DNA of 13,005 nt from Desulfoprunum sp. (GTDB taxonomy: Bacteria > Desulfobacterota > Desulfobulbia > Desulfobulbales > Desulfocapsaceae). How positions within the stretch are numbered: the first letter of the stretch is position 1; each line of letters opens with the position of its first letter. The translations under genes and the position numbers were made by a program. The notes beneath the pieces were generated by a model. It worked only from the letters and a program-made list of their open reading frames with translations, was not told where the DNA came from and made no database searches. Shown here piece after piece: positions 1-13,005 of the stretch. Location: NCBI GenBank assembly GCA_030696435.1, contig JAUYSF010000478.1:1-13005 (forward strand), in the 5' to 3' direction.

Positions 1-207
1 CAATTCTCCCACGATGCGACGCGGATCACAACTGTTGCATCACACGGGAGGGATTGCGACACATCCACATTTTTGTTGTATATCCATCAAGATAGGCAAA
101 TTGACAAACTTACCGATACTCAAAGGACTCTTGCGCTCTACCTGTTTTCACGGATTACGGCAAAAGTAGATGGAAACACTCAGACACGTGAGCACCAACG
201 AAAAGAT

Positions 208-242
208 GCCGACGAGTGCGGCGTGGAGCCGCACTCGTCGGC
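208..242 (-). terminator. Rho-independent terminator of the ftsH-redox operon
   Basis: A perfect 15-bp inverted repeat (arms 208-222 and 228-242) encloses a 5-nt loop. On the minus strand the GC-rich stem is followed within three bases by TTTT. It lies about 60 bp past the stop codon of the HybB/NrfD-like gene, where the minus-strand operon should end. On the plus strand no T-run follows the stem, so it appears to work in one direction only. The bases to the left of it (1-207) show no convincing gene or site. Confidence 0.82.
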
Positions 243-300
243 CGGCCAGGATGTCATGTGAGTTGGCATGGGAAAAAGGAATCAGGAACAACAGACTCTA

Positions 301-1560
301 TTATCGGGAAGGAGATTCCTGCCAATCGAAAACAATCGGCAAGCGATAGACGATAAAGCGATACACCACACAGTAGACGGCATAGAGGGTGATGGTCAGC
401 CAAATCTCCTTCCAATGCGGAACCTCCAGGTATAATTGATAGTTAAAACAAAATATTGCGGTATTTAGACGATTCCAGACAATCCCGATAACCGTGATAA
501 AGGCGGCAAAGCGAACTGTCCCAACCGCCCCGCTGCGAACACCGCCGGCAAAAAGCAGCATCGGCAGCACTACCCCAAGGCCGATTTCCAGGAGATAGTA
601 GCCTCCCCAGCCGGTGAGGAGATGTTCCCACTCGTTATCATGGGCCAGGGCGACCAGCTTTATCACCAGGTAGGTGATCATGGCATAGGACGCACCCTTG
701 GCAAGCCCCAGGGTTATCCGGTCAAGACTTGCCGTGAAATCCCTGCCGCAGCGCCAGGGCAGGTAGCGGGCGATCAGGGTGGAGCTGACGATGACCATGG
801 CCAGGCCGCCGAAAACGGCGGAGCAGAGAAAATGGATCCATTGGAATTCGGTCGATAGCCAGAGGGGATGGAGCTTGCTCGGGGCATAGGTAAAGAGGGC
901 GCCAAGGGCTCCCTGATGCAGGGTGGAGAGGATAATGCCGGCGATAGTAAGACCCAGGGCGATGCGTTTGATGTGCTTTTTCCAAGCCGGCCTGCCCAGC
1001 CACTCGAACAGGGCCGGCAGGACCTCGGCGATCTGCACCGAGAGATAGGTGGCGACATGCCAGGCCACCAGAAAGAGTACTGAGGCAGGGCCGAACGAGA
1101 CAAACATGGGATAAGCAAGCCGCCAGGGCATCCCGAGATCCACCTCCAGATAGACAACGGCGAAAAAATAACCGAGAAGGCCGTTGAGCAGAGCCAGACG
1201 TTCAATGGGATGGAAATCCGTTCTGCCAAACAGGGTGACCGTGGTCCCGAGGAGAAACCCCGAGGCCGACAGGGGAACCATGCCGAACAGACCGAACCCG
1301 AGAAAAAGCCCCCAGGGATAATCATTGGAGGCATGCGTTACCGCCCCCAGACCATAGATATAGCGCTGCAGAAGAAGCGGCAGGCCCACGGAAAAGAGTA
1401 TCAGGAGCAGCCAGTTCACCGGGTTGCGCCACACCTGCCGCAGGTACTGGTCCATTGTCAGGCCGAGGAGCAGCCGCTCTTTTAAGCTCCAGGACGTTCC
1501 ATCGATCTTGCTCGAGCCGCTGACGGGTGCGTACACGTTTTCGGAGATTGCCGTCCTCAT
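301..1560 (-). CDS. HybB/NrfD-family integral membrane quinone-interacting subunit
   Basis: This 419-residue protein is very hydrophobic, with about ten predicted membrane segments after a polar N-terminal stretch of roughly 45 residues. It resembles the HybB/HmcC branch of the NrfD family. The segment STLHQGALGALF, around residue 212, matches the conserved LHQSSLGxLF stretch of that branch. In known complexes such subunits bind menaquinone and pass electrons to or from a periplasmic FeS partner. The gene follows that partner here: its ATG overlaps the stop codon of the HybA-like gene as ATGA, with an AGGAGGGGG ribosome-binding site inside the upstream gene. The length is near that of E. coli HybB (about 390 residues). 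It ends with TAA and is followed by the operon terminator. The family is secure; the direction of electron flow cannot be read from the sequence. Confidence 0.9.
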   Translation of the reverse strand: MRTAISENVYAPVSGSSKIDGTSWSLKERLLLGLTMDQYLRQVWRNPVNWLLLILFSVGLPLLLQRYIYGLGAVTHASNDYPWGLFLGFGLFGMVPLSASGFLLGTTVTLFGRTDFHPIERLALLNGLLGYFFAVVYLEVDLGMPWRLAYPMFVSFGPASVLFLVAWHVATYLSVQIAEVLPALFEWLGRPAWKKHIKRIALGLTIAGIILSTLHQGALGALFTYAPSKLHPLWLSTEFQWIHFLCSAVFGGLAMVIVSSTLIARYLPWRCGRDFTASLDRITLGLAKGASYAMITYLVIKLVALAHDNEWEHLLTGWGGYYLLEIGLGVVLPMLLFAGGVRSGAVGTVRFAAFITVIGIVWNRLNTAIFCFNYQLYLEVPHWKEIWLTITLYAVYCVVYRFIVYRLPIVFDWQESPSR

Positions 1561-2492
1561 TTTTCCCCCTCCTGCTCATTTTCACTTGTTGTTTCCTGAT
1601 GTTGCCCCTTGCGGGTGGCCAGCAGATGAAAACCCGCAAACAGCGCCGGCCAGATCGTCAGGACCATCGGTACCATACCCAGGAAGTTCTTTACCGAATC
1701 GAGTATCGGTTCGTGGGGGATCTCCATATCGAAGCCGACTTCAGCAAACGGCACAGGCGAGAGATACAGCCATGACGTGCCTCCCGCCTCATATTCACCG
1801 TAGATATGGTCGACATAGCTTCCTCTGTTTTCCTCTATCCGGCGGCGACCGATCTTGATCAGTTCCTCACGTTTGCCGAACACCAGTGCCTCCTGGGGGC
1901 AGGCCTCCACACAGGCCGGCGGCTTGCCGTACTTCAGCCTGGTATCGTAGCAGAAGATGCATTTGAGAATGCGGGGATCAAAGGCGCTTGAATATTTGAA
2001 GGTCGGGATATAGAAAGGACAGGCCACCATGCAAGTCCTGCAACCGACGCAGACATCGGGATTATAGATGACCGCTCCTTCGGGCGTCTTGGTGTAGGCG
2101 TTGACGAAACAGGACGAGAGACAGGCCGGTTCCTGGCAGTGATTGCACTGCACCTTTTTGAACAAGGGGTGCTCCTGCCCCGGCACCTCGTAGCGGTTGA
2201 CTACCGTATAGCAGTTTTCATCGGTACGCCTCTGCTGGCCATGCTCATCGTTTGCAAAAACAGTATCGTCAGTGAACGGCAGATCGGGGGGCGGCAGATG
2301 CTGTTCGGCATTGCAGGCCGCCTCGCAACTCCTGCATCCCACGCAGCGACTCAAATCAACCAGCACGCCCAGGCTCTCCGTATACTTTTTCACCTGGTGC
2401 GCCGATCCGGCCGCGGGGCGCTGCAGCAGTGTCGCGATTGTCGCAGCCACCCCGCTTTTCAGGATTGTTCTTCGGCTTGTTTTCTCAGACAT
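1557..2492 (-). CDS. Tat-exported 4x[4Fe-4S] electron-transfer protein, HybA-like
   Basis: This 311-residue protein begins with a twin-arginine signal (SRRTILK at residues 6-12, then a hydrophobic stretch), so it should be exported folded with its cofactors. Sixteen cysteines form four cluster-binding groups: C50/53/56/60, C116/119/124/128, C148/151/154/158 and C178/181/194/198. A hydrophobic segment near residues 269-293 followed by a charged tail is a C-terminal membrane anchor, as in HybA (about 328 residues). It would relay electrons between the membrane NrfD-like subunit and the periplasmic cytochrome. It starts 51 bp after the cytochrome stop with its own strong AAGGAGA site, the only non-overlapping junction in the operon. 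Its stop overlaps the next ATG. Related proteins also serve in Hmc-type and Geobacter Cbc-type complexes, so the name HybA need not imply a hydrogenase. Confidence 0.92.
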   Translation of the reverse strand: MSEKTSRRTILKSGVAATIATLLQRPAAGSAHQVKKYTESLGVLVDLSRCVGCRSCEAACNAEQHLPPPDLPFTDDTVFANDEHGQQRRTDENCYTVVNRYEVPGQEHPLFKKVQCNHCQEPACLSSCFVNAYTKTPEGAVIYNPDVCVGCRTCMVACPFYIPTFKYSSAFDPRILKCIFCYDTRLKYGKPPACVEACPQEALVFGKREELIKIGRRRIEENRGSYVDHIYGEYEAGGTSWLYLSPVPFAEVGFDMEIPHEPILDSVKNFLGMVPMVLTIWPALFAGFHLLATRKGQHQETTSENEQEGEK

Positions 2493-2543
2493 CAGCGTCT
2501 CTCCTTGGTTGTTCCATGGTCCCGGCCAAGCGTTCCGGGCCTC

Positions 2544-3032
2544 TCATTTCTTCACCGCCATGCGTTTGCGCCCTGCCGCCGTAAGGGTATGACAGTCCTG
2601 ACAGGCAACTGGGCCGCCCTCCGCCCGGTGACAGCCGAGACACTGCAGGTGCAGCGCTCCCCGCAGACCGGGTTTGTCGATATGATAGACAGCGGCAGCG
2701 GTTGGCGTGACGACAGCCGGTGTTTCGGGCCGCTTAACAACGTGACAGCCCGAACAGGACACGTCGGGGAGAGCCTTGGATTCGGCGTGGCAGCGCTTGC
2801 AGGAGGGATTTTCCGTGCCATCCCCGGTAGTGTGGTGATGGCAGGCGCTGCAGGCGAAAGCCCCGGCATGCATCGAGTGATCAAAGGTCACCGCTTCATA
2901 GAGTTCCTGGAGATACTCAATATTGATCGTTTCCGGGATCTCATCCGCCTCCATCGCCCAGCCGGCCGGACCAGGCCAGATTATCGAAATGAGCAACCAC
3001 ATTGTCGTCACAGCCTTCTGTGCGCTTTTCAT
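2544..3032 (-). CDS. Secreted pentahaem cytochrome c, class III-like
   Basis: This 162-residue protein has a Sec signal peptide (lysines near the N-terminus, hydrophobic core about residues 10-22, likely cleavage after GWA at residue 26). It carries five CXXCH haem motifs at residues 61-65, 78-82, 93-97, 131-135 and 144-148. The segment FDHSMH just before the first haem is typical of tetrahaem cytochromes c3, where such histidines act as distal ligands. Other candidate ligands are H66, H67, H117 and H128. It is probably the periplasmic electron acceptor or donor for the FeS and NrfD-like subunits encoded next. Its ATG overlaps the ftsH stop as ATGA, with AAGGAG upstream, so its translation is likely coupled to the protease. 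Standard c3 has four haems; the fifth makes this a variant. I do not recognise a named orthologue. Confidence 0.92.
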   Translation of the reverse strand: MKSAQKAVTTMWLLISIIWPGPAGWAMEADEIPETINIEYLQELYEAVTFDHSMHAGAFACSACHHHTTGDGTENPSCKRCHAESKALPDVSCSGCHVVKRPETPAVVTPTAAAVYHIDKPGLRGALHLQCLGCHRAEGGPVACQDCHTLTAAGRKRMAVKK

Positions 3033-4888
3033 GCCGTGATCTCCTTAGCTGTAGAGCTATCCTGCGTTGACTGACCGTCGTTGACCGGCTTTCTCCGACT
3101 TTGCCGTTCCTTCGTCCCGGCTGTCGTGGAACAGCGCATGACAATGTCTATCTCGTCTGCGTCGATGGTTTCGTTGACCAGCAGTATCTCGGCCAGGTCG
3201 TGGATCAGTCGATTGTGACCACGCAGCAGCTTTTCCGTTTCGGCGTAGCAGTCATTGATGATCCGCCGTATTTCAAGGTCGATCTCCCGGGCCGTGGCCT
3301 CGCTGAAACTGCCCTGCGTATCGATATCGCCCAGGAACTGATGCTGTTTTCGCCGAAAGACGACGGACCCCAGGGCGCTGCTCATGCCCCATTCACAGAC
3401 CAGCCGACCGGCGATATCGGTGGCGGCGGCGATATCGTTCGCCGCCCCGGTGGAAAGATGGTTGAAGACAATTTTTTCAGCGACCCGACCACCCAGCAGG
3501 ACCTTGATCCTGTTCAACAGATAGACGAGCGAATAGGTGTAACGTTCCTCGAAGGGCACCTGCTGCGTCAGGCCCAGGGCCATGCCGCGTGGAATGATGG
3601 TGATTTTATGCAACTGATCGGTTTCCGGCAAAAGCCTTGCGACAATCGCATGGCCGGCCTCGTGGTAGGCAATCACCCTTCGTTCCTGTTCATTGATGGC
3701 GGCATTCCGGCGCTCAAGCCCCATCACGATTTTGTCCTTGGCCTCCTCAAAATCACTGATCTCCACCGCCTGTTTTTTCAGCCGGGCGGCAGTCAGGGCC
3801 GCCTCGTTGACCAGATTTGCGATATCCGCGCCGCTGAATCCCGGAATACCCTGGGCTATCAGAGGCAGGTTCAAGGCCGGAGAAACGGTGACCTGCCGGG
3901 TATGCACCTCGAGAATCCTTATCCGGCCGTGCAGATTGGGCAGGGAAACCGTCAACTGCCGGTCAAATCTGCCGGGCCGGAGCAGGGCCGGATCGAGAAT
4001 GTCAGGCCGGTTTGTCGCTCCGACAACGATCACCGTTTCGTTGCTGGAAAAGCCATCCATCTCAACCAGCAGGGCATTGAGCGTCTGCTCGCGTTCTTCG
4101 TGGGACCCATTGTTGCCGCCTCCTCTCCTGCTGCCTATTGCATCAATTTCATCAATAAAAACGATGCACGGCGCCGTCTTTTTGGCCAGGCCGAACAGTT
4201 CCCGCACCCTGGAGGCACCGACACCGGCGAACATCTCGACAAAGTCCGAGCCGCCTATCGAGTAAAAAGGCACGGAGGCCTCTCCGGCGATGGCTCTGGC
4301 CAGCAGGGTCTTGCCGGTCCCCGGAGGGCCCTGCAGCAGAACGCCTTTAGGTATGCGGCCGCCGAGCATGTTGTATTTCTCGTGGTGTTTTAAAAAGTCC
4401 ACGACCTCAATCAATTCTTCCCGAACCTCGTCTATCCCGGCCACATCGGCGAAGGTCTTGGTGTCGCCTGGCCCGGTCCTTATCTGAAATCGCTTGTCTT
4501 TCCAGATGCCGCCGCCACCGTACTGACGGGTTCTGAAAACAAACCCCAGGCCGGCCAGGAGCATCAGCAGCAGGATTATGCCCTTCATCCGGGACAATAT
4601 GGACGGCGGTTCCTCGACGGTGATGGTCGCTTTACTTGCCAGGAGGAGCGGCATAAGAGAGGGAATATCTGGAGAAAAGGTCCTGAATGGGTGTCCCTGG
4701 CTGTCTTCAGCCCGGATCTCCGGGCCCTGCATATGCACTGCGGCTACCCGCCCATCCTGCAGATCACTGAGAAAATCCGTGTAGCTCCGATCGGGAGGCG
4801 TCGTCTCGAGCAACCAGGCGTTATAGCCGAGGACCGCCAGAGTCGTCAGGAAGATGAGCAGCAAGCCGATCTGCACCCTGTTTTTCAT
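3029..4888 (-). CDS. ftsH: ATP-dependent zinc metalloprotease FtsH (operon-specific paralogue)
   Basis: FtsH is a membrane-anchored AAA+ hexamer that extracts and degrades membrane and short-lived proteins. I start it at the ATG ending at 4888 (619 residues), because GGGGAG lies just upstream and the two-segment membrane topology begins there; the frame is open upstream to 4999 but that part is non-homologous. Visible parts are membrane segments at about 4-26 and 102-118, a periplasmic domain between them, Walker A GPPGTGKT (187-194), Walker B with FIDEID (244-249), the arginine-finger region near LRPGRFDR (303-310), zinc site HEAGH (409-413) and the third ligand D485. The central pore motif reads MFAGVG (219-224) where most FtsH proteins have MFVGVG. 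The start overlaps the stop of the transposase-like gene and the stop overlaps the cytochrome start. The location suggests a specialised quality-control role for the redox complex rather than the housekeeping copy; that role is inferred. Confidence 0.95.
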
Positions 4889-5787
4889 ACCCGTCTCCCC
4901 TCGTTGTCCCTCTGATGCTGACGCGTCTTGCCGATACGGGCGGAAAAGGCGACAAGACCCGTCAAAAGATGATCCAGAACCGCCAGACGATCGGTCCAAA
5001 AGGAGGTGTTGCAGCGAAAGCTGAATTCATCCAGATAACTCTGCAGGTAACGGCTGTCGATTGCCCCCCGAAACACCGTCGCCAGCCACGTCTCTGTTTC
5101 CTGAAGCAGAAGTCGGCCCTGTTCAAGCTGTTCGACCGACGGTTGTCCGCAGAGATACGATTCCTGCAGACATTCGCGCAACGGCCAGTCCCTTTCTCTG
5201 ACCATTAATGCGGTGTTTGGCTGAATCAGGATCTTCGCGGCAGCCGTAAGCGCTTCAGCCGAACGTGTCTCGAGCACGACAAACTTCACCCTCTTTTTGG
5301 TCTCTTTACAATTCTTCAGTTCCAGGGCAATCCCGATGTCCGGGGTTGTCTTGTCGGCAGCCGTTACGACCGGCAGCGAGACAATGTCAAAAAAAACTAT
5401 GCCGCAGCAGGGTGCGGATTCGGCAAGAGCAGCGGCTCGCCTGATTTTCTGCAGCCAGATCCAGGCTGTCTGATAGCATGAGAGGCCCATGAGCTGCTGG
5501 AGTTCCCGGGCGCTGATTCCCCGACTCTGCAGACAGAACTGCCTGGCCACCTGCATCCAGGCCATCAGGCTGTTCTTGCTGCCATGCATCAGGGTGTGGG
5601 CGGTAATCGAAGTCTGTTTGCGGCAATATCGGCAGACCACGACATAGGCCGGGGCTATATCTTTCTGCACTTCCCCGCAAAACGGACACGTAAAACCCCA
5701 TGGCCAGCGTTTCCGAAACAGATAGGACACGCATGCGTGTTCATTGGCCAAAAATCCATCCGCCTTCAGTTTGTGAGAAGCAGCCAT
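4885..5787 (-). CDS. Transposase-derived zinc-ribbon protein (IS1595/ISXO2-like, apparently domesticated)
   Basis: With a start at the ATG ending at 5787 the product is 300 residues. That start has AGGGG upstream and sits about 44 bp after the predicted sigma-54 start site; the frame is open to 6024 but the extension crosses the promoter. The N-terminal part matches IS1595-type transposases: a zinc ribbon with C34/C37 and C52/C55, then a helical region up to about residue 118. The C-terminal RYLQSYLDEFSFRCN (246-260) is the family's characteristic end segment. The catalytic region between is degenerate. D134 is followed by IVS rather than the usual E-t-y-v-G-G run, and the TDG motif is replaced by RERD near 197-200. 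No inverted repeats flank the gene, and its stop overlaps the ftsH start. It is probably no longer a transposase. A DNA-binding regulatory role is possible but unproven. Confidence 0.75.
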   Translation of the reverse strand: MAASHKLKADGFLANEHACVSYLFRKRWPWGFTCPFCGEVQKDIAPAYVVVCRYCRKQTSITAHTLMHGSKNSLMAWMQVARQFCLQSRGISARELQQLMGLSCYQTAWIWLQKIRRAAALAESAPCCGIVFFDIVSLPVVTAADKTTPDIGIALELKNCKETKKRVKFVVLETRSAEALTAAAKILIQPNTALMVRERDWPLRECLQESYLCGQPSVEQLEQGRLLLQETETWLATVFRGAIDSRYLQSYLDEFSFRCNTSFWTDRLAVLDHLLTGLVAFSARIGKTRQHQRDNEGRRV

Positions 5788-5842
5788 ATGTTCCGTACCC
5801 CTGGCGAAAATGATGATGCCTATCCTGCTCAATGGTGGAGAA

Positions 5843-5857
5843 GCATAAGTTATGCCA
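5843..5857 (-). promoter_or_regulatory. Sigma-54 (-24/-12) promoter of the ftsH-redox operon
   Basis: The minus strand reads TGGCATAACTTATGC, close to the sigma-54 consensus TGGCAC-N5-TTGCA, with the invariant GG and GC exactly ten bases apart. Transcription should start about 12 bases past the GC, near 5831. That leaves a leader of about 44 bases before the chosen ATG of the transposase-like gene. The gene directly upstream encodes an NtrC-family activator, which fits. The -12 box has ATGC where TTGC is preferred. Confidence 0.72.
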
Positions 5858-5986: not shown

Positions 5987-6072
5987 CCGAAGGGAGATCC
6001 GGCGTGTGGGGCTGCAACACTCAAGAGGGATTACAACATAAGTGTGGCGACAGATGTGTAGGATACTACCTG

Positions 6073-7881
6073 TCAGGAAAACATATCTATGTCCATATGC
6101 AGTTCGTGCATTTTGCGATAGAGGGTTGAACGATCAATATTCAGGATCCGGGCGGCTTTGGCCTTATTGCCTCCGGCCTTCTGCAGGGCGGCCAGAATTA
6201 TCATCGTTGTTTGCCGTTCCTGGTCCGAGAGCTCAGGGTGTCCGCCCGCCATCACCCGACTTTCCTCAATCTTCAACGGCGCCTCCGCCAAACCTCGCAG
6301 GTCTCCCTGGCTCACCTGGCTGACTTCCTCCGGCAGATGTTCGCAGGAAATGGTGGATCCTGTGCAGAGGATGCAGGCCCGCTCGATGACGTGTTCAAGC
6401 TGGCGGACATTGCCGGGCCACTGGTAGCGCAGAAGAAGGCCCATGGCCTGCTCGGAGATACCGGTAATGCTCTTTTCCATCCTGCGGGCGAAATGATCGA
6501 TGAAGTGGTTGGCGAGCAGCTCTATATCGCCCTCTCTGACCCGCAGCGGCGGCATACGGATATCGATGATCAGGAGACGGAAATACAGATCTTCCCGGAA
6601 ACCGCCATTGGTAACTTTCTCTTTGAGATCGGCATTGGTAGCTGCAACAACCCGTACATCGACCCGAATTTCCTTGTCACTGCCGACCGGATAAAACGTT
6701 TTTTCCTGCAGGAAACGGAGCAGGCGCAACTGCATGTTCATCGAGACATTACCTATCTCATCGAGGAACAGGGTGCCGCCATCGGCCTGGAGTATCCTGC
6801 CCATCCTGTTCTCTTCGGCGCCGGTGAAGGAGCCTTTGCGGTGGCCGAACAATTCGCTCTCGAGAAGATTCTCCGGCATCGACGCGCAGTCAACCATGAT
6901 AAGCGGTCGATTGCGCCGAAGACTTTCCTGATGCAGGGCATGCACCACAAGTTCCTTGCCCGTGCCGCTCTCGCCTGTGATCAGCAGGGTAGTATCGACG
7001 CGGGCGATATTCTCGACCATCATGTAGACATTCTGCATGACAGGGCTGGCCCCGATCATTTTATGGAATTGAGTCCTGCCGGGCCTTTGACTCTGTACGT
7101 TGTGACTCATGTCCCTGAAGACCAGGACGGCCCCGGCAGGCTCCCCTGTACCGTCGTCAAGCGGCGATATGCAGATACTCAGCACCTTGCAGACGCCATC
7201 CGGAAAGCACTCACGACGATGATCCGAGAGCTCCAGGCCGGTCTTCATGACATCGGTCACATTTTCCGTCAGCCGGCAAAGATCCTTGTTCAGGCAAAGG
7301 GCGGCGAGATTACCGCCTTCCTCAAGCCCCGACTGCAATGTGCCGAACAGTGCGGTGGCGGCCTGATTCATCTTGAGGATATTGAGATCCTTGTCTACGG
7401 AAATAATACTGTCGGTCACACTTTTGAATATCGTTTCGAGAATACGTCGATAGCGTTCCCCGGCAAGCTCCGCCTCTCTCTTTTCCAGTTCCAGACGATA
7501 CTGCTGAATGGCCAGCCGTGCGGTTTTCAGCAGAGCCTCCTTTTCGACCGGCTTGGAGAGATAGTCGAAAGCCCCGAGCCGTACGGCCTCCGAGGCAGTT
7601 TCGACATGGGGATAGCCGGTGATTATCACCACGGGGCAGAATACCCTGAGCTGCCTGAATCGTTTCAGCAAATCGATGCCGGAATGGCTCTCCAGGACGA
7701 TATCACAGATAATGAGATCAAAATTCCTCAAGGATACCGCCTCGATCGCCTCGTCGTACGAACCGACAGCCAGAACCGTTTCGTATCCCGCCCGTCTCAG
7801 AAAAATGCTGAAGGTATTGCGCAGACTGACCTCGTCATCAATTACGAGAATAGCGGTTTCCGTCAGTGTCGTACGTGCCAT
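6073..7881 (-). CDS. NtrC-family sigma-54 response regulator, REC-PAS-AAA+-HTH
   Basis: This 602-residue regulator has a full set of activator motifs. Its receiver domain (about 8-125) has acidic pocket D15/D16, phosphorylation site D60, T88 and K110. A PAS domain at about 145-258 is inserted before the ATPase. The AAA+ domain (about 275-505) has Walker A GESGTGKE (303-310), sigma-54 contact loop GSFTGA (350-355, usually GAFTGA), Walker B TLFLDEIG (370-377) and WPGNVRQLEHVIERA (488-502). A Fis-type helix-turn-helix (about 568-594, ending RSTLYRKMHEL) binds DNA. It lies 41 bp after the PAS protein gene, probably in one operon with the kinase. The next promoter downstream is a sigma-54 promoter, so the ftsH-redox operon is its most likely target. 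The PAS domain may add a second, phosphorylation-independent input. Confidence 0.94.
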   Translation of the reverse strand: MARTTLTETAILVIDDEVSLRNTFSIFLRRAGYETVLAVGSYDEAIEAVSLRNFDLIICDIVLESHSGIDLLKRFRQLRVFCPVVIITGYPHVETASEAVRLGAFDYLSKPVEKEALLKTARLAIQQYRLELEKREAELAGERYRRILETIFKSVTDSIISVDKDLNILKMNQAATALFGTLQSGLEEGGNLAALCLNKDLCRLTENVTDVMKTGLELSDHRRECFPDGVCKVLSICISPLDDGTGEPAGAVLVFRDMSHNVQSQRPGRTQFHKMIGASPVMQNVYMMVENIARVDTTLLITGESGTGKELVVHALHQESLRRNRPLIMVDCASMPENLLESELFGHRKGSFTGAEENRMGRILQADGGTLFLDEIGNVSMNMQLRLLRFLQEKTFYPVGSDKEIRVDVRVVAATNADLKEKVTNGGFREDLYFRLLIIDIRMPPLRVREGDIELLANHFIDHFARRMEKSITGISEQAMGLLLRYQWPGNVRQLEHVIERACILCTGSTISCEHLPEEVSQVSQGDLRGLAEAPLKIEESRVMAGGHPELSDQERQTTMIILAALQKAGGNKAKAARILNIDRSTLYRKMHELHMDIDMFS

Positions 7882-7922
7882 GGCGATTCCCCGGCTGAAA
7901 AGTTGAAATGCGGTGCAGGTCT

Positions 7923-8675
7923 TCAGGCAAAGGTGTTCATGTCGCGAAAAACGACAACGGCCCCGGTCAACATACCGCGATCCCTGATAGGGGTACTGAC
8001 ATATTCCACCGGGAAACTGGAGCCGTTCTTACACCAGAAGATATCACCGGTTTTATAGTGAACCAGCCCATCCCGGTAGGCCATATAAATAGGGCAGGAT
8101 TCAACGGGATGGGCAGTGCCGTCGGCATGCGTATGGTGGATCAGCTGATGGTGCGTATTGCCGAGCAGTTCCTCCGCCTCCCAGCCGAGCATCAATGAAG
8201 CGGCCTTGTTCATGAAAATGACCTTTCCCTGGTTATCGAGACCGAGTATGCCTTCGCCGGCGGAATCGAGGATCAGATGCAATTGCTTCTGCAGTTCGCG
8301 AACCTCCTCTTCAGCCTGGATGCGTTCGGCAATTTCCCTGTTTAATGATCCATTTACAACCTGAAGCTCGAAAACCCGCTTCTCCATGACCTCGTCAAAC
8401 TGGACACGCAGGTTGTGCATTTCACTGTGCTGGAATTCCACTTCCTTTTTCAGCTTGTCAACCATCAATTCCTGCTCTTTCATGGCCTGCCGGAATGTCA
8501 GGAGAACGACGGCAAGAAACGCGGGAAACAGCAGGCAGGTTTCGATAAAAAACTCGGTCCTGCCGGAAACACTATCAAAAATATGGAGCAGGACAACCAG
8601 ACCGAGAAGGACTGACCATTCAATTGTCAGCAACAGCGCTGTGCTTGCTTGTTTCTTGCTTAGAGTTCTTTGCAT
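7923..8675 (-). CDS. Membrane PAS-domain sensor without a kinase domain
   Basis: This 250-residue protein has two membrane segments (about 12-34 and 41-62), a long charged coiled coil (about 65-130), and one PAS domain (about 130-247). It ends directly after the PAS core, at VVFRDMNTFA. There is no histidine-phosphotransfer or ATPase domain, so it cannot act as a kinase alone. It overlaps the 3' end of the histidine kinase gene by 16 bp and precedes the regulator gene by 41 bp. It may be a membrane-bound sensing partner that docks to the soluble kinase through its coiled coil, or a remnant of a hybrid sensor that lost its C-terminus. The PAS carries C194 in a PVESCPIY segment common in environmental PAS domains. 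The ligand is unknown. The start codon is ATG with only a weak ribosome site, as expected for a coupled gene. Confidence 0.85.
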   Translation of the reverse strand: MQRTLSKKQASTALLLTIEWSVLLGLVVLLHIFDSVSGRTEFFIETCLLFPAFLAVVLLTFRQAMKEQELMVDKLKKEVEFQHSEMHNLRVQFDEVMEKRVFELQVVNGSLNREIAERIQAEEEVRELQKQLHLILDSAGEGILGLDNQGKVIFMNKAASLMLGWEAEELLGNTHHQLIHHTHADGTAHPVESCPIYMAYRDGLVHYKTGDIFWCKNGSSFPVEYVSTPIRDRGMLTGAVVVFRDMNTFA

Positions 8676-10675
8676 GATCGCACCGGCAAATCAATTATGA
8701 AACGGGCCCACTCACCCTTTTTACTCTGCACCTTGATGGTACCCCCATGTTCTCGCACCAGGCCATGACTGATACTCAGCCCGAGGCCTGTCCCCTCGCC
8801 CTTTGGCTTGGTCGAGAAAAACGGGTCGAACAGTCTTTTCTGGATTTCCGGTTCTATACCGATACCCTGGTCGGTAAACGTCAGCCTGATAAAATCCTTT
8901 TCCTCCTGTCGAGATACCTCTCCTTTGATTTCAAGTTTTTTCTCGGCGCAGGGCTGCGGATAGCGCATGTTCAGGGCATACCGGGCATTGCTGATTATGT
9001 TCAGGACAACCTGCTGTAATTGCTGCTCATTGCACAGCAGAGATGGCAGAGGTTGAGCGATGTTGACGGAGCAGACAATCCCGTCTTTTTTCAGGAGGTG
9101 GGCGACCAGATGCAGACTGTTTGCGACTATGGTTTCGATTCGCGATGGGGCATGAGCTTCTTCTCTCCGACGGGCAAAATCAAGCAATTTCGAGACAATT
9201 CCGGCAATCCTCTTGCCTTCGCTGATAATGTTGCCGAGATTTTCGTTTGCATCCGGATCGTGTGGGTCGTCGAGAATTATCTGGGCATAGTTGATGATGC
9301 CGTTTATCGGATTGTTGATCTCATGGGCCACCCCGGAGGCCAGTTCCCCTATTGCCGCCAGATGAGCCGCCCTGATCGCCTCCGCCCTGATGGCTTCCTC
9401 TTCCGTCAGGTTTCGGGCGACCAGCAGGGTTGCATTGATTTCACCGTTTTCCTCAAGGAGCGGGCTGACGGTCAGCATATATGTACCATGCAGACCGTTT
9501 AATTCAGTTTCGGAAATCTGGGTCTTCTGGTAGCCGATAAACTGTTCCAACGGACATTGTTCACCACCGGAATGGCCGCCATGCAGGATATCACAGACTT
9601 TTTTGCCGATCACTTCGTCACGGTGCTTTTTGGCGGCAGCGCAGGTCGCCGGGTTCGCTTCCAGGATTGTCTTGTCATTTGCCACCACCAGGGCCGGATC
9701 CTGAATGGCGATAAAAATCTTTTTCCAACGGGCGGTGAACATATTGAGCTGCTGGTCCGCCGCCAGAGTTTCAGTTTCATCGATACCGAGCATGACCAGG
9801 CCGACTTTGCCTTTCTCAATATTATGCCGGATCGAACCGTGCCAGTTTATAAAGCGTTCCGTTCCGTCCCTGGTGAGTAAAGGGGCCTTGAAATGAATAC
9901 TGGCCTGTTCGCCTTTGAGAATCTCGGAGAAAAGCTGTTGAAACTCACGCCTCTTTTTCGGACTGATCAGCACGTCAACCCAGTATTTCTCCAGTATTTC
10001 CTGCTCGCCGTACCCTGTCACCTGTTCTGCTTTTTTATTGAAGGAGGCAATCGTCCCGCATGGTCTGATTGTCACTATAAGCTCTTGAATAGTATTGATA
10101 ATTTCCTTATTAAAATCGAGTTCGTCATGAAACTTGAGCGCCATGTCCCGGGAAAAGAGAGCAAGCCAGATATCATCTATGACATGGGCAAGAAACTCTT
10201 TCCTCAATTCACTTATATGACCTTTTCCCGGATAATTAACCGCCACAAAACCATAGGTCCGGCCTTGATAACCGACAGGCCAGACAAGATACGAACCATC
10301 CCCGGCCCCTTTGACGCCGAACCGGTCAAGGTCGATGTGCAGATACAATGGTTCGTTGAACGAGGTGAAATCATTGTTGAAACGCTCAATGAGAACCTCT
10401 GCCAGGGCATTTTGCAGGAGAGAATCGCCAGGTCTGGCGGTTGGGCTGGAGGCGTAAAGAATGAATTGGGATTTTTCTCTGTCGAGATTTCCGATCCAGA
10501 CGGAATTGCAGTGCAGGGCTTCATGCAGAACAGTGCAGCAATTCTGAAATATGAATTTCGAACTCTGCGCCTGAGGGTCACCCAGACTGTGCTCCCGGAT
10601 AGCGGTCAACAGTCTGCTGCGGTGCTGGAAGAGTTTCAGGGCTTCCGCCTCTCTTCCCGAAGATGGTTTTACCAT
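8660..10675 (-). CDS. Soluble sensor histidine kinase, GAF-PAS-PAS-HisKA-HATPase
   Basis: The 671-residue product has no membrane segments or signal peptide, so it should be cytoplasmic. A GAF-like region spans about 20-180 and two PAS domains lie at about 185-300 and 310-425; the second has C361 and C374. The dimerisation helix contains H451 in GVAHEINNP, the phosphorylated histidine of NtrB-type kinases. The ATPase domain shows the N box around N563, DQGIGI (602-607), DPFFSTK (617-623) and GEGTGLGLS (626-634), so catalysis should be intact. The start has GAGGA six bases upstream. The gene is followed by the membrane PAS gene (16-bp overlap) and the NtrC-type regulator, its probable phosphoacceptor. 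No clear promoter is visible in the 224-bp gap before it; a TTGACG at 10831-10836 lacks a good -10 box. The signal is unknown; a redox or energy cue is a guess from context. Confidence 0.93.
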   Translation of the reverse strand: MVKPSSGREAEALKLFQHRSRLLTAIREHSLGDPQAQSSKFIFQNCCTVLHEALHCNSVWIGNLDREKSQFILYASSPTARPGDSLLQNALAEVLIERFNNDFTSFNEPLYLHIDLDRFGVKGAGDGSYLVWPVGYQGRTYGFVAVNYPGKGHISELRKEFLAHVIDDIWLALFSRDMALKFHDELDFNKEIINTIQELIVTIRPCGTIASFNKKAEQVTGYGEQEILEKYWVDVLISPKKRREFQQLFSEILKGEQASIHFKAPLLTRDGTERFINWHGSIRHNIEKGKVGLVMLGIDETETLAADQQLNMFTARWKKIFIAIQDPALVVANDKTILEANPATCAAAKKHRDEVIGKKVCDILHGGHSGGEQCPLEQFIGYQKTQISETELNGLHGTYMLTVSPLLEENGEINATLLVARNLTEEEAIRAEAIRAAHLAAIGELASGVAHEINNPINGIINYAQIILDDPHDPDANENLGNIISEGKRIAGIVSKLLDFARRREEAHAPSRIETIVANSLHLVAHLLKKDGIVCSVNIAQPLPSLLCNEQQLQQVVLNIISNARYALNMRYPQPCAEKKLEIKGEVSRQEEKDFIRLTFTDQGIGIEPEIQKRLFDPFFSTKPKGEGTGLGLSISHGLVREHGGTIKVQSKKGEWARFIIDLPVRSCKEL

Positions 10676-10899: not shown

Positions 10900-11646
10900 C
10901 TACAACAGATCGCTTCTCAGCCAGTAGTAGACGATATAGGTTCCGGCCACCAGCAACAGGATGGCCGAGATTTTCTGAATATAGGGCAGAAACCGGCGCA
11001 GGGCTCCGACGACCACGCCCTCTTTCACCAGGGCAATACCGAGGGTCAGGACCAGGAGTACAGAACCCATCCCTAAGATATAGCTGACAAACTGGTACAC
11101 GCCAGCGGTGATATTTTTGGCCGCGATCGAACTGCCCATAACGAGCAGGAAGATCGGCAAGGTGCAGCTCATCGAGGTGGCACCAAAGGCCGCCCCAAAG
11201 AGAAAAAAGCCGCCGACTGTCATCCGGCGGGGATCTCCGAATCTGTCGGCCAGACGGAGCATAAAGGAAAACGACAGGTAATTCCCCAGTAAAAGCCAGA
11301 TCCCCATAATGATCAGGATACTGCCGATGACGAGGGCCAGCCAGGGGATCACATGATTGAGGAAGGTGCCGCCCACGGTGATAATGCCACCCACCACGCC
11401 AAAGAGCAGACCGAAACCGGAGGTGACGGCCGCTGTGATACCTAGGGCCTTGAGCATCCGACGCAGCAGCGACTGCTGGTAGAACCCGGCATCCTCAGCC
11501 CCGAGATAAAGGGTCAGATAGACCGGCAGCATGGCAAAACCGCAGGGGTTCACCGCCGAGACCATGCCGGCCCCGAAGGAATAGCCAAAGGGCAGATAGA
11601 TCGCGACATGCCCAAGCCATTGGCTGATTAACGCCTGTATATCCAT
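10900..11646 (-). CDS. CcdA/DsbD-type transmembrane thiol-disulfide transporter
   Basis: I chose the ATG ending at 11646 (248 residues) because AAGGTG lies nine bases upstream. Earlier in-frame starts (a TTG ending at 11682 and an ATG ending at 11679) lack a ribosome site. About six membrane segments are visible. The two redox-active cysteines of the CcdA family are present: C35 in NPCGFAMLP and C161 in SMSCTLPIF. Proteins of this family carry reducing equivalents from cytoplasmic thioredoxin across the membrane, often to keep apocytochrome c thiols reduced for haem attachment. That fits the multihaem cytochrome encoded in the operon downstream, although the two are about 5 kb apart and not evidently in one transcript. 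No periplasmic thioredoxin-like partner is fused or adjacent. The alternative is a general periplasmic disulfide-reduction or metal-resistance role. Confidence 0.88.
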   Translation of the reverse strand: MDIQALISQWLGHVAIYLPFGYSFGAGMVSAVNPCGFAMLPVYLTLYLGAEDAGFYQQSLLRRMLKALGITAAVTSGFGLLFGVVGGIITVGGTFLNHVIPWLALVIGSILIIMGIWLLLGNYLSFSFMLRLADRFGDPRRMTVGGFFLFGAAFGATSMSCTLPIFLLVMGSSIAAKNITAGVYQFVSYILGMGSVLLVLTLGIALVKEGVVVGALRRFLPYIQKISAILLLVAGTYIVYYWLRSDLL

Positions 11647-11707
11647 TGCGAGGTTCACCTTAAAAATGTTCTTTACCATCAAAGATGAGAACTATTCAGC
11701 GAATTAA

Positions 11708-11819
11708 ATCGCTATCGAAATCGAATCGAGTTCGCAAAAATCATAGCAGTTTCAGGAAAAGTGCGACTGCAACTCAGAATTCACTGCACCGGAAGACGCA
11801 ATCCGATTTCGATAGCGAT
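11708..11819. repeat. 16-bp perfect inverted repeat bracketing an 80-bp spacer
   Basis: ATCGCTATCGAAATCG (11708-11723) is the exact reverse complement of 11804-11819. The whole 112-bp unit lies in the non-coding gap between lpxC and the ccdA-like gene. No transposase or terminal duplication is visible. It may be a REP-like or MITE-like element, or a scar of one. Confidence 0.7.
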
Positions 11820-11833
11820 AGCGATTTCGATCC
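11804..11833. repeat. Hexamer tandem array CGATNN x5
   Basis: Five consecutive six-base units read CGATTT, CGATAG, CGATAG, CGATTT, CGATCC. The opposite arm near 11708-11725 has the same six-base rhythm on the other strand (ATCGCT, ATCGAA, ATCGAA). Similar AT/CG hexamer runs are, from memory, dispersed in several proteobacterial genomes; I could not check this. Confidence 0.65.
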
Positions 11834-11872
11834 CGCTGGACTCAATGACAACAAACTGAACAGTTACAATTA

Positions 11873-13005
11873 TTATTGCCTTCCTCTGGAACTGCTCTGA
11901 ATAGCCTGATACAAGCGTTCCACCAGGGCCTGATTGTAACCATGAGAGGTCATGTTGGCGGTAATGCGTCCTCTGATGGAGAAACCGAGCAGATAGAGGT
12001 CTCCGAGCAGGTCCAATATCTTGTGGCGCACGAATTCGTCGGGATAACGGAGTTCCGTATTGATGACTTTGCCTTCGTACATGATGATATGGGAATTGAG
12101 ATATCCACCACCGACCTTGCCAAGTCTCTGGGCCATTTCGATATTTTCAAAGGTATTGAATGATCGAGCAGGGGCGATCTCCTTGGCAAAAGATCCTTTT
12201 TCAGGATTGAACGTGAAAATCTGTTCACCTATGGGCAGAGGGTAGTCAACCCTCATTGATATTTCGAATCCTGCAAAAGGCTCGGCATAGAGATGCTTTT
12301 CATGCCTCTCCTCGGTTCCCACTCCGATCTTCTCGCGGATGACGGCAACCCTGGTGAAGGCTGGCTGTTCCTCTATCCCTGCTTGCGCTATGAGGTCGCA
12401 GAAATCCTTGGCGGAACCATCTATGTTCGGGACCTCGTCGTCGACCTTTACAAGCACGTTGGTTATGCCGTGCATGGAAAAGATTGCCATCAGGTGTTCA
12501 ACAGTGCGTACCTGTTGCCTGCCGTTATCGAGTGTGGTGGAGTTGGCAGAGAATGTCTTTGATGAGCCAGTTTTGGAAAAATTTCCTAAGGAGGTGATAT
12601 GGCCAGGGATGGTTTGTCCGTCGAGAGTTTGAAAGACGATCCCTTCATTAATCCCCAAGGGGCTGAGGATGATACCTGTTTTCCGGCCGCTCAGAAGCCC
12701 AACACCGTTCAGGACAACATTCTCTCTGAGGGTCCGTTGAAGTTCGGGAGAATCCACTACCTCCACCATGCCGGGGGGCAGCAAAAGGTCGGCACTGGCG
12801 ATCTCAAGTCCGGTATCCGAAGCAAGGGTCGAGTCGCTCCTTGCAGGTTGATGCTTAATGGCAGATTTCACCTTGTCGAGCAAAACCTCCAGATGCAGCG
12901 GTTTTTCCATAAAATCGTAGGCCCCGGCCTTAATGGCGGCAACTGCCGTCTCGATGCCGGCATGTCCGCTCATCATGATGATGGGGAGTGTGGGAAATCG
13001 GCCTT
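11873..13005 (-). CDS. lpxC: Response-regulator receiver domain fused to LpxC deacetylase (5' end outside window)
   Basis: LpxC removes the acetyl group from UDP-3-O-acyl-GlcNAc, the committed step of lipid A synthesis. The frame is open to the right edge, so the start lies beyond 13005. Numbering from the Met ending at 12976, residues 1-42 plus the edge-proximal PTLPII are the last third of a CheY/NtrX-like receiver domain (S3 of MMSGH and K25 of FMEKP are conserved). After a linker, LpxC spans about 75-367. Its zinc ligands H161 (in TVEHL), H318 and D322 (in EFVRHKILD) are present, as are E160, K319 and the base H345 (in SHGYN). The usual GGSLDNA segment is GGYLNSH (289-296 region), with Asn at the typical Asp. 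The enzyme should be active, with possible control by phosphorylation. It has no visible link to the redox operon. Confidence 0.9.
   Translation of the reverse strand, partial: GRFPTLPIIMMSGHAGIETAVAAIKAGAYDFMEKPLHLEVLLDKVKSAIKHQPARSDSTLASDTGLEIASADLLLPPGMVEVVDSPELQRTLRENVVLNGVGLLSGRKTGIILSPLGINEGIVFQTLDGQTIPGHITSLGNFSKTGSSKTFSANSTTLDNGRQQVRTVEHLMAIFSMHGITNVLVKVDDEVPNIDGSAKDFCDLIAQAGIEEQPAFTRVAVIREKIGVGTEERHEKHLYAEPFAGFEISMRVDYPLPIGEQIFTFNPEKGSFAKEIAPARSFNTFENIEMAQRLGKVGGGYLNSHIIMYEGKVINTELRYPDEFVRHKILDLLGDLYLLGFSIRGRITANMTSHGYNQALVERLYQAIQSSSRGRQ

Follow-up and report, generated by a model that had tools for sequence, protein, structure and literature searches.

An operon of Desulfoprunum sp. 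joining a transposase-derived protein, a redox-linked FtsH and an Hmc-like cytochrome complex

The locus described here raises the question of why a gene for a transposase-like protein should stand at the head of an operon that also encodes the membrane protease FtsH and three components of an electron-transfer complex. It is found in Desulfoprunum sp., a member of the Desulfobulbales, in a window of 13,005 nucleotides that is the whole of contig JAUYSF010000478.1 (our C11), in an assembly of 494 contigs that is 93% complete. The initial annotation suggested a dedicated assembly or turnover system for the complex. Our own reading, to which we give a probability of roughly 0.55, is that the operon encodes an Hmc-like quinol-cytochrome complex, an FtsH dedicated to its quality control, and a transposase-derived protein acting as local regulator. 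The five genes, in the order of transcription, are:

4885..5787, minus strand: ZnR, derived from an IS1595-type transposase (zinc ribbon, helix-turn-helix and RNase H-like fold), from Pfam, NCBIfam, its clade and an AlphaFold2 model
3029..4888, minus strand: FtsH, a membrane AAA+ zinc protease of a lineage linked to redox modules, from TIGR01241 (704.5 bits), motifs and tree
2544..3032, minus strand: periplasmic c3-type cytochrome with five CXXCH motifs, a homologue of the HmcA C-terminal domain, from haem motifs and PDB profile matches
1557..2492, minus strand: HmcB/HybA-like 4Fe-4S protein with a TAT (twin-arginine translocation)-like signal and a C-terminal hydrophobic segment, from NF045715 (376.1 bits)
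301..1560, minus strand: HmcC/HybB-like membrane subunit of NrfD type, from NF045714 (336.8 bits)

The Pfam and NCBIfam matches agree with these names (Zn_ribbon_IS1595, FtsH TIGR01241, Cytochrom_CIII, Fer4_11/HmcB-like and HmcC-like). The three ATGA overlaps on which the idea of coupled translation was based are present, at 4885-4888, 3029-3032 and 1557-1560, as is the gap of 51 bases before HmcB with AAGGAGAG. The junctions were compared in 13 related loci that have all five genes, with start codons picked by script. The ZnR-FtsH and HmcB-HmcC genes overlap or are at most 5 bases apart in all 13, while the FtsH-cytochrome junction is tight in eight and the cytochrome-HmcB junction in one. 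Coupling is therefore a constant feature of the first two of these junctions and differs between loci at the others.

It had been allowed that this gene order might occur in one strain only, which is not so. From 54 places with ZnR matches, 20, mostly the strongest, were taken for a look at the surrounding locus, and 13 of these have the full five-gene order; one of the other seven (L037) is cut by a contig end, and six are ZnR homologues without the operon. A close orthologue of HmcC occurs in 30 of 58 genomes, our own included, and in 24 of the 26 that can be judged FtsH is encoded no more than 4 kb upstream of it, in the same orientation (counted by hand). It is absent near HmcC in G039 and G046, and contig ends cut G006, G031, G045 and G052. 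A larger set came from a scan with the HmcC alignment, in which the best 80 of 172 relatives were kept and extra loci added, giving 97 loci that exclude the window and include three identical pairs (L115/L185, L118/L194 and L123/L195). Both ZnR and FtsH are found in 43 of these, so that the order is not limited to one strain, FtsH without ZnR in 15, ZnR without FtsH in one, and neither in 24; contig ends prevent full scoring of the remaining 14 (eight for both genes, six for ZnR). On the HmcC tree, ZnR requires at least five changes and FtsH at least eight.

The regulatory genes upstream (6073-10675, for a regulator here called RR54, a PAS protein and a kinase) accompany the operon in most relatives, as members of one conserved locus. 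In L083 the kinase-PAS-RR54 block is about 5 kb downstream of HmcC rather than upstream, having moved within the locus. It is confirmed that the five genes, in most relatives with the upstream regulators, form a conserved unit across many genera of sediment bacteria living on sulfur compounds, and a chance neighbourhood is ruled out by this conservation across loci and genomes. Where Desulfuromonadales loci extend far enough upstream to be judged, they have the cytochrome-HmcB-HmcC core, in most cases near a kinase and a regulator, and have neither FtsH nor ZnR. In a sample of 297 genomes from the phylum, HmcC orthologues were found in 16, our own included. The FtsH copies adjoining HmcC in this sample scored above 890 bits, and among the matches listed such a copy adjoins HmcC in G000, G143, G210, G313 and G038. 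ZnR matches at E 1e-60 occur in five genomes, and at the operon locus in our own genome alone. A scan of the genome contigs with P0001 gave no relative.

FtsH is commonly regarded as a general quality-control protease. The window FtsH is a member of this family, scoring above the TIGR01241 cut-off of 600, and has the same defining AAA+ and M41 motifs; the HEAGH zinc motif and Walker A and B are invariant in 14 of 14 aligned sequences. It differs from housekeeping FtsH in belonging to a separate lineage that is tied to redox operons. A tree of 109 sequences was rooted at its midpoint, 16 locus ids having been dropped as same-genome or presumed near-duplicates, together with sequences shorter than 480 residues. 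The 57 FtsH from the cluster require two changes on this tree, compared with a mean of 36.9 after shuffling, and may still have a single origin. They share a branch with 10 accessory FtsH of a sister group, with support of 100, apart from the 42 other copies. An open reading frame for a multihaem protein lies within 1 kb downstream in 53 of 56 cluster FtsH, in one of nine sister FtsH and in none of 41 others. The sister count is low because a sensor gene intervenes: when the limit is set at 3.5 kb, such a frame follows all nine sister FtsH (nine of the 10 in the tree, in wide loci, four of them from two genomes) and none of 18 hand-picked controls.

Four wide loci of the sister group were read, namely L219 (contig C187 of the window's own genome), L221 (G025:C1:3350000-3369900), L222 and L225. 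In three of them FtsH is preceded by genes for a kinase, a sigma-54 regulator and small membrane proteins; the fourth, on C187, begins too near FtsH to show its upstream genes. After FtsH there is a membrane sensor, followed in turn by a cytochrome of NapC/NrfH type or by one of c7 type together with NrfD and Fe-S proteins. The window's own genome thus has a sister-type redox set on C187, and G025, an assembly of two contigs, has three redox gene sets in tandem, of which two include FtsH within the sequence examined. The suggestion that FtsH is dedicated to the complex gains from these neighbourhoods, above all from the 53 of 56 within 1 kb. The suggestion of an assembly or turnover system does not fare as well, given that the core is found without FtsH and ZnR in 24 loci, and FtsH without ZnR in 15.

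The core itself resembles part of a known complex. In Desulfovibrio, the Hmc complex has the subunits HmcABCDEF. The five haem motifs of the window cytochrome are kept in 14 of 14 aligned sequences, its best PDB profile matches are 2e84 (429-554) and 1gws (419-543), and it aligns with the C-terminal domain of the 16-haem HmcA and of nine-haem cytochromes. HmcB-like and HmcC-like subunits are present as well, but their scores are under the equivalog cut-offs (420 bits for HmcB and 550 for HmcC), and a canonical Hmc complex is ruled out by both being missed. The operon further differs from Hmc in having 5 rather than 16 haem motifs, and in the addition of FtsH, ZnR and a sigma-54 kinase system. 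The HmcB-like protein has a sub-threshold match to TAT_signal (19.9 of 22.7 bits). The HmcC-like protein has no Pfam match at 1e-3, and a PDB profile search with its alignment gave no match. No cytoplasmic Hmc-type subunit was seen in the part of the neighbour clusters of 80 relatives that was looked at, with no profile search for HmcD, HmcE or HmcF; the window ends 300 bases past HmcC. Our reading is that the operon would encode an Hmc-like complex pared down to the part near the membrane. Other complexes follow the same three-part plan: NrfBCD of enterobacteria and the Nhc/Ohc complexes consist of a multihaem cytochrome, an Fe-S protein and NrfD. Unlike with NrfBCD, no NrfA is seen here, and the window proteins are nearer in sequence to HmcB and HmcC than to NrfC. 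We take it that Cbc4 (CbcSTU) of Geobacter may have the same cytochrome-FeS-NrfD core; the Desulfuromonadales loci L098, L105 and L111 carry the cytochrome-HmcB-HmcC core, without FtsH and ZnR.

The product of the first gene, ZnR, exceeds the Pfam cut-off for Zn_ribbon_IS1595 (28.3 against 25.4 bits) and is below the NCBIfam cut-off for IS1595 (NF033547, 66.2 against 75 bits). Its AlphaFold2 model has a predicted local distance difference test (pLDDT) score of 84, with ends of low confidence, and the best PDB match of the model is the ISCth4 transposase (E 1.8e-4, TM-score 0.34). ZnR is like the IS1595-family transposases in its zinc ribbon, helix-turn-helix, RNase H-like fold and C-terminal motif of YLDEFxFRxN type. 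It differs from them in its fixed place in an operon with its own promoter, and in its catalytic residues: the second catalytic Asp is present in none of 45 ZnR sequences, compared with all 14 genuine sequences of IS1595 type, and the third catalytic residue (H or N) in one of 45, compared with all 14. The zinc cysteines are kept in all 44 ZnR sequences that hold that part. The ZnR sequences form one clade with respect to the 14 genuine ones, with support of 98. Judged by its sequence, ZnR appears to come from one domestication of an IS1595-type transposase and is predicted to be catalytically dead; an active transposon is rejected on the basis of the lost catalytic residues and the single clade. 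ZnR evolves faster than its neighbours, with 23-58% identity to the window's copy in the 13 loci, where FtsH has 52-81% and HmcC 61-83%. Genuine IS1595-type genes are present in the same genomes as ZnR.

A possible function for ZnR is suggested by the DNA upstream of it, where the following features were identified:

5842..5857, minus strand: sigma-54 (-24/-12) promoter TGGCATAACTTATGCT, promoter-like by sequence
5818..5825, minus strand: copy of a GGATARGT element, GGATAGGC, with one mismatch, proposed as ZnR operator from its fixed distance past the promoter
6013..6048, no strand assigned: candidate RR54 binding site with inverted half-sites GCAACACT ... AGTGTGGC, from palindromes recurrent in related loci
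6073..7881, minus strand: RR54, a receiver-PAS-sigma54 activator-Fis helix-turn-helix regulator, from Pfam and synteny
7923..8675, minus strand: PAS protein, membrane-anchored by eye, from Pfam and synteny
8660..10675, minus strand: PAS histidine kinase, from Pfam and synteny

The promoter is the only match in the window to TGGCAYNNNNNNTGCW, with 0.17 expected. Among 36 relatives in which the gene of the sigma-54 regulator immediately precedes the operon, a -24/-12 site reached by at most 5% of 200 shuffles is found in 32. A promoter score of at least 18 is found in 43 of 44 ZnR loci and in 19 of 39 loci without ZnR, among which two identical pairs, L115/L185 and L118/L194, count twice. With a -24/-12 promoter and an adjoining sigma-54 activator both present, the operon is predicted to be sigma-54-activated. 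Palindromes of the form GCCACACTTSTG-N6-CASAAGTGTGGC recur upstream in related loci, and probably bind the sigma-54 regulator. A search of the window for half-sites of the RR54 site gave nothing above chance, and the candidate site therefore rests on the relatives.

The distance from the promoter start to the first base of the GGATARGT element is 32 or 33 bases, near the expected start of transcription. With at most one mismatch the element is present in 32 of 43 ZnR loci, compared with none of the 19 ZnR-less loci that have a promoter-like site; with at most two mismatches the counts are 35 of 43 and 3 of 19. At random places the rates are 1.2% and 5.1% respectively. The combined pattern of promoter and element occurs once in the window's own genome, at ZnR. 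Over 58 genomes it gave 20 matches, nine at ZnR and 11 elsewhere, compared with three for a reversed control; there were none in the ZnR genomes G001 and G003. Two cultured relatives, both with the five-gene order, differ in the element: it has one mismatch in Desulfobulbus elongatus (L082) and is a poor match in Desulfoprunum benzoelyticum (L057). Three loci separate ZnR from FtsH: the element is present in L062, which has ZnR and no FtsH, and absent in L096 and L100, which have FtsH and no ZnR and are placed inside the ZnR-containing group. The element thus goes with ZnR and not with FtsH in these loci. Elsewhere in the genomes of L100, L096 and L102 there are weaker matches to ZnR only, the best at 159 bits, compared with 346 for the ZnR of L062. 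The position of GGATARGT past the promoter fits a ZnR operator. ZnR had been placed at the head of an assembly machine, and is better read as a regulator, given the promoter-linked element at ZnR loci. A link of the element to transposon ends was also considered: the terminal repeats of the nearest genuine insertion sequence (L047) contain GGATAC, which is loosely like GGATARGT. Of the terminal repeats around five genes of this type, the clearest (L050) has no GGATARGT-like string, and the likeness in L047 is taken as chance.

Several observations weigh against a dead transposase that regulates its operon beside a dedicated FtsH. The first catalytic position holds Asp in 10 of 45 ZnR sequences, the window's included (14 of 14 in genuine insertion sequences), and the third holds an acidic residue in 14 of 45. 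The GGATARGT consensus was read from the ZnR loci themselves, so that the ZnR count is partly by construction, and it is the comparison with loci lacking ZnR that carries the information. Six of the 19 ZnR-less loci in that comparison are also without FtsH, with promoter-like sites 380-516 bases from the cytochrome, and these sites may not be promoters. The element has at least three mismatches in eight of 43 ZnR loci (L035, L046, L049, L057, L064, L110, L125 and L133); in L125 one lies a few bases beyond. The loci, being related, are not independent of each other, and the joint loss of ZnR and element represents very few events; the link between ZnR and the site is a correlation. In 24 of 97 loci the cytochrome and HmcC core is accompanied by neither FtsH nor ZnR, and the complete genome of Desulfosediminicola flagellatus, which has both ZnR and the complex, gave no FtsH match above 772 bits. 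Neither FtsH nor ZnR is therefore indispensable.

We propose that the HmcC-like and HmcB-like subunits would exchange electrons, in either direction, between the menaquinone pool and the five-haem periplasmic cytochrome, which would be a stand-alone counterpart of the C-terminal domain of HmcA. FtsH would pull out and degrade unassembled or damaged membrane subunits, and so keep the complex balanced. The kinase/PAS/RR54 system would turn the operon on at the sigma-54 promoter, and ZnR, having lost catalysis and kept DNA binding, would bind GGATARGT at the start of transcription and tune its own operon, most simply by repression.

The closest competitor, which we consider a minority possibility, makes ZnR an unstable DNA-binding substrate of the co-encoded FtsH, the pair forming a proteolytic switch. 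Regulators degraded by FtsH are known and provide a comparison. The ZnR-FtsH genes overlap or are at most 5 bases apart in 13 of 13 loci, ZnR occurs without FtsH in one locus compared with 43 that have both, and the ends of ZnR are of low confidence in the model; yet 15 of 97 loci have FtsH and no ZnR, and D. flagellatus has ZnR and the element with no FtsH of the lineage found. Slightly less probable is that FtsH serves mainly membrane sensors and small membrane proteins, and not the redox subunits. The sister modules do have a membrane sensor with FtsH, three of the four wide loci encode membrane proteins of 70-74 residues, and similar small membrane proteins are found beyond HmcC in many relatives, but it is the cytochrome gene and not a sensor that comes after FtsH in the window and the 13 measured loci.

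That the locus is an ordinary Hmc complex of sulfate respiration with chance neighbours seems very improbable. HmcB-like and HmcC-like are indeed the best NCBIfam matches, but both miss their equivalog cut-offs, the cytochrome has 5 and not 16 haem motifs, and the neighbours, including the adjacent FtsH, are conserved over many genera. We give even less credence to ZnR as a decaying, hitch-hiking insertion element. Its IS1595 ancestry, its rapid divergence (23-58% identical to the copy in the window) and the genuine IS1595-type genes in the same genomes would suit such an origin; against this, the ZnR frames are open, the zinc cysteines are kept in 44 of 44, the sequences form one clade, the gene is fixed ahead of FtsH, and all 45 sequences have lost the second catalytic Asp.

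Some further features of the window and its relatives may be recorded. At 199..243 (minus strand), after HmcC, there is a GC-rich hairpin with a short T run, by eye a probable terminator. The gene at 10900-11682 encodes a membrane protein that looks by eye like a thiol carrier of CcdA/DsbD type, with no Pfam or NCBIfam match at 1e-3. At 11873-13003 a receiver domain is fused ahead of LpxC, in a gene cut by the contig end. In E. coli, LpxC is degraded by FtsH, and the closeness of the LpxC gene to ftsH in the window may or may not have a meaning. An Rfam scan of the window at the gathering threshold gave no family. Among the relatives, the HmcC-like gene has an in-frame stop in G008:C1, G015:C1 and G055:C111, where the locus may be decaying, and L115 has a multihaem cytochrome of about 480 residues directly 3' of HmcC (11304-12737). 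Two families of small membrane proteins (about 100 residues, and 76-93 residues) recur in 42 and 13 respectively of the 80 loci L054-L133, at a median of 1.9 and 2.9 kb after the HmcC start and upstream in some loci; two members tested had no Pfam match, and L100 has three copies of such a protein.

It is concluded that a retired transposase probably became the on/off regulator of this operon. A fuller version, which we hold tentatively and at less than even odds, is that a single domestication in the Desulfobulbales made the transposase a dedicated repressor of a sigma-54 promoter, with one composite site in each genome, that its operon also has a private FtsH, and that this FtsH is a branch of a lineage giving each inner-membrane multihaem quinol module its own protease. 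The combination of a dead transposase and a matching site at its promoter allows a direct test of whether a bacterial transposase has turned into a local regulator. The FtsH lineage beside multihaem redox genes suggests one protease per electron-transfer complex, and through the redox-linked FtsH the assembly and renewal of such complexes become open to genetic study.

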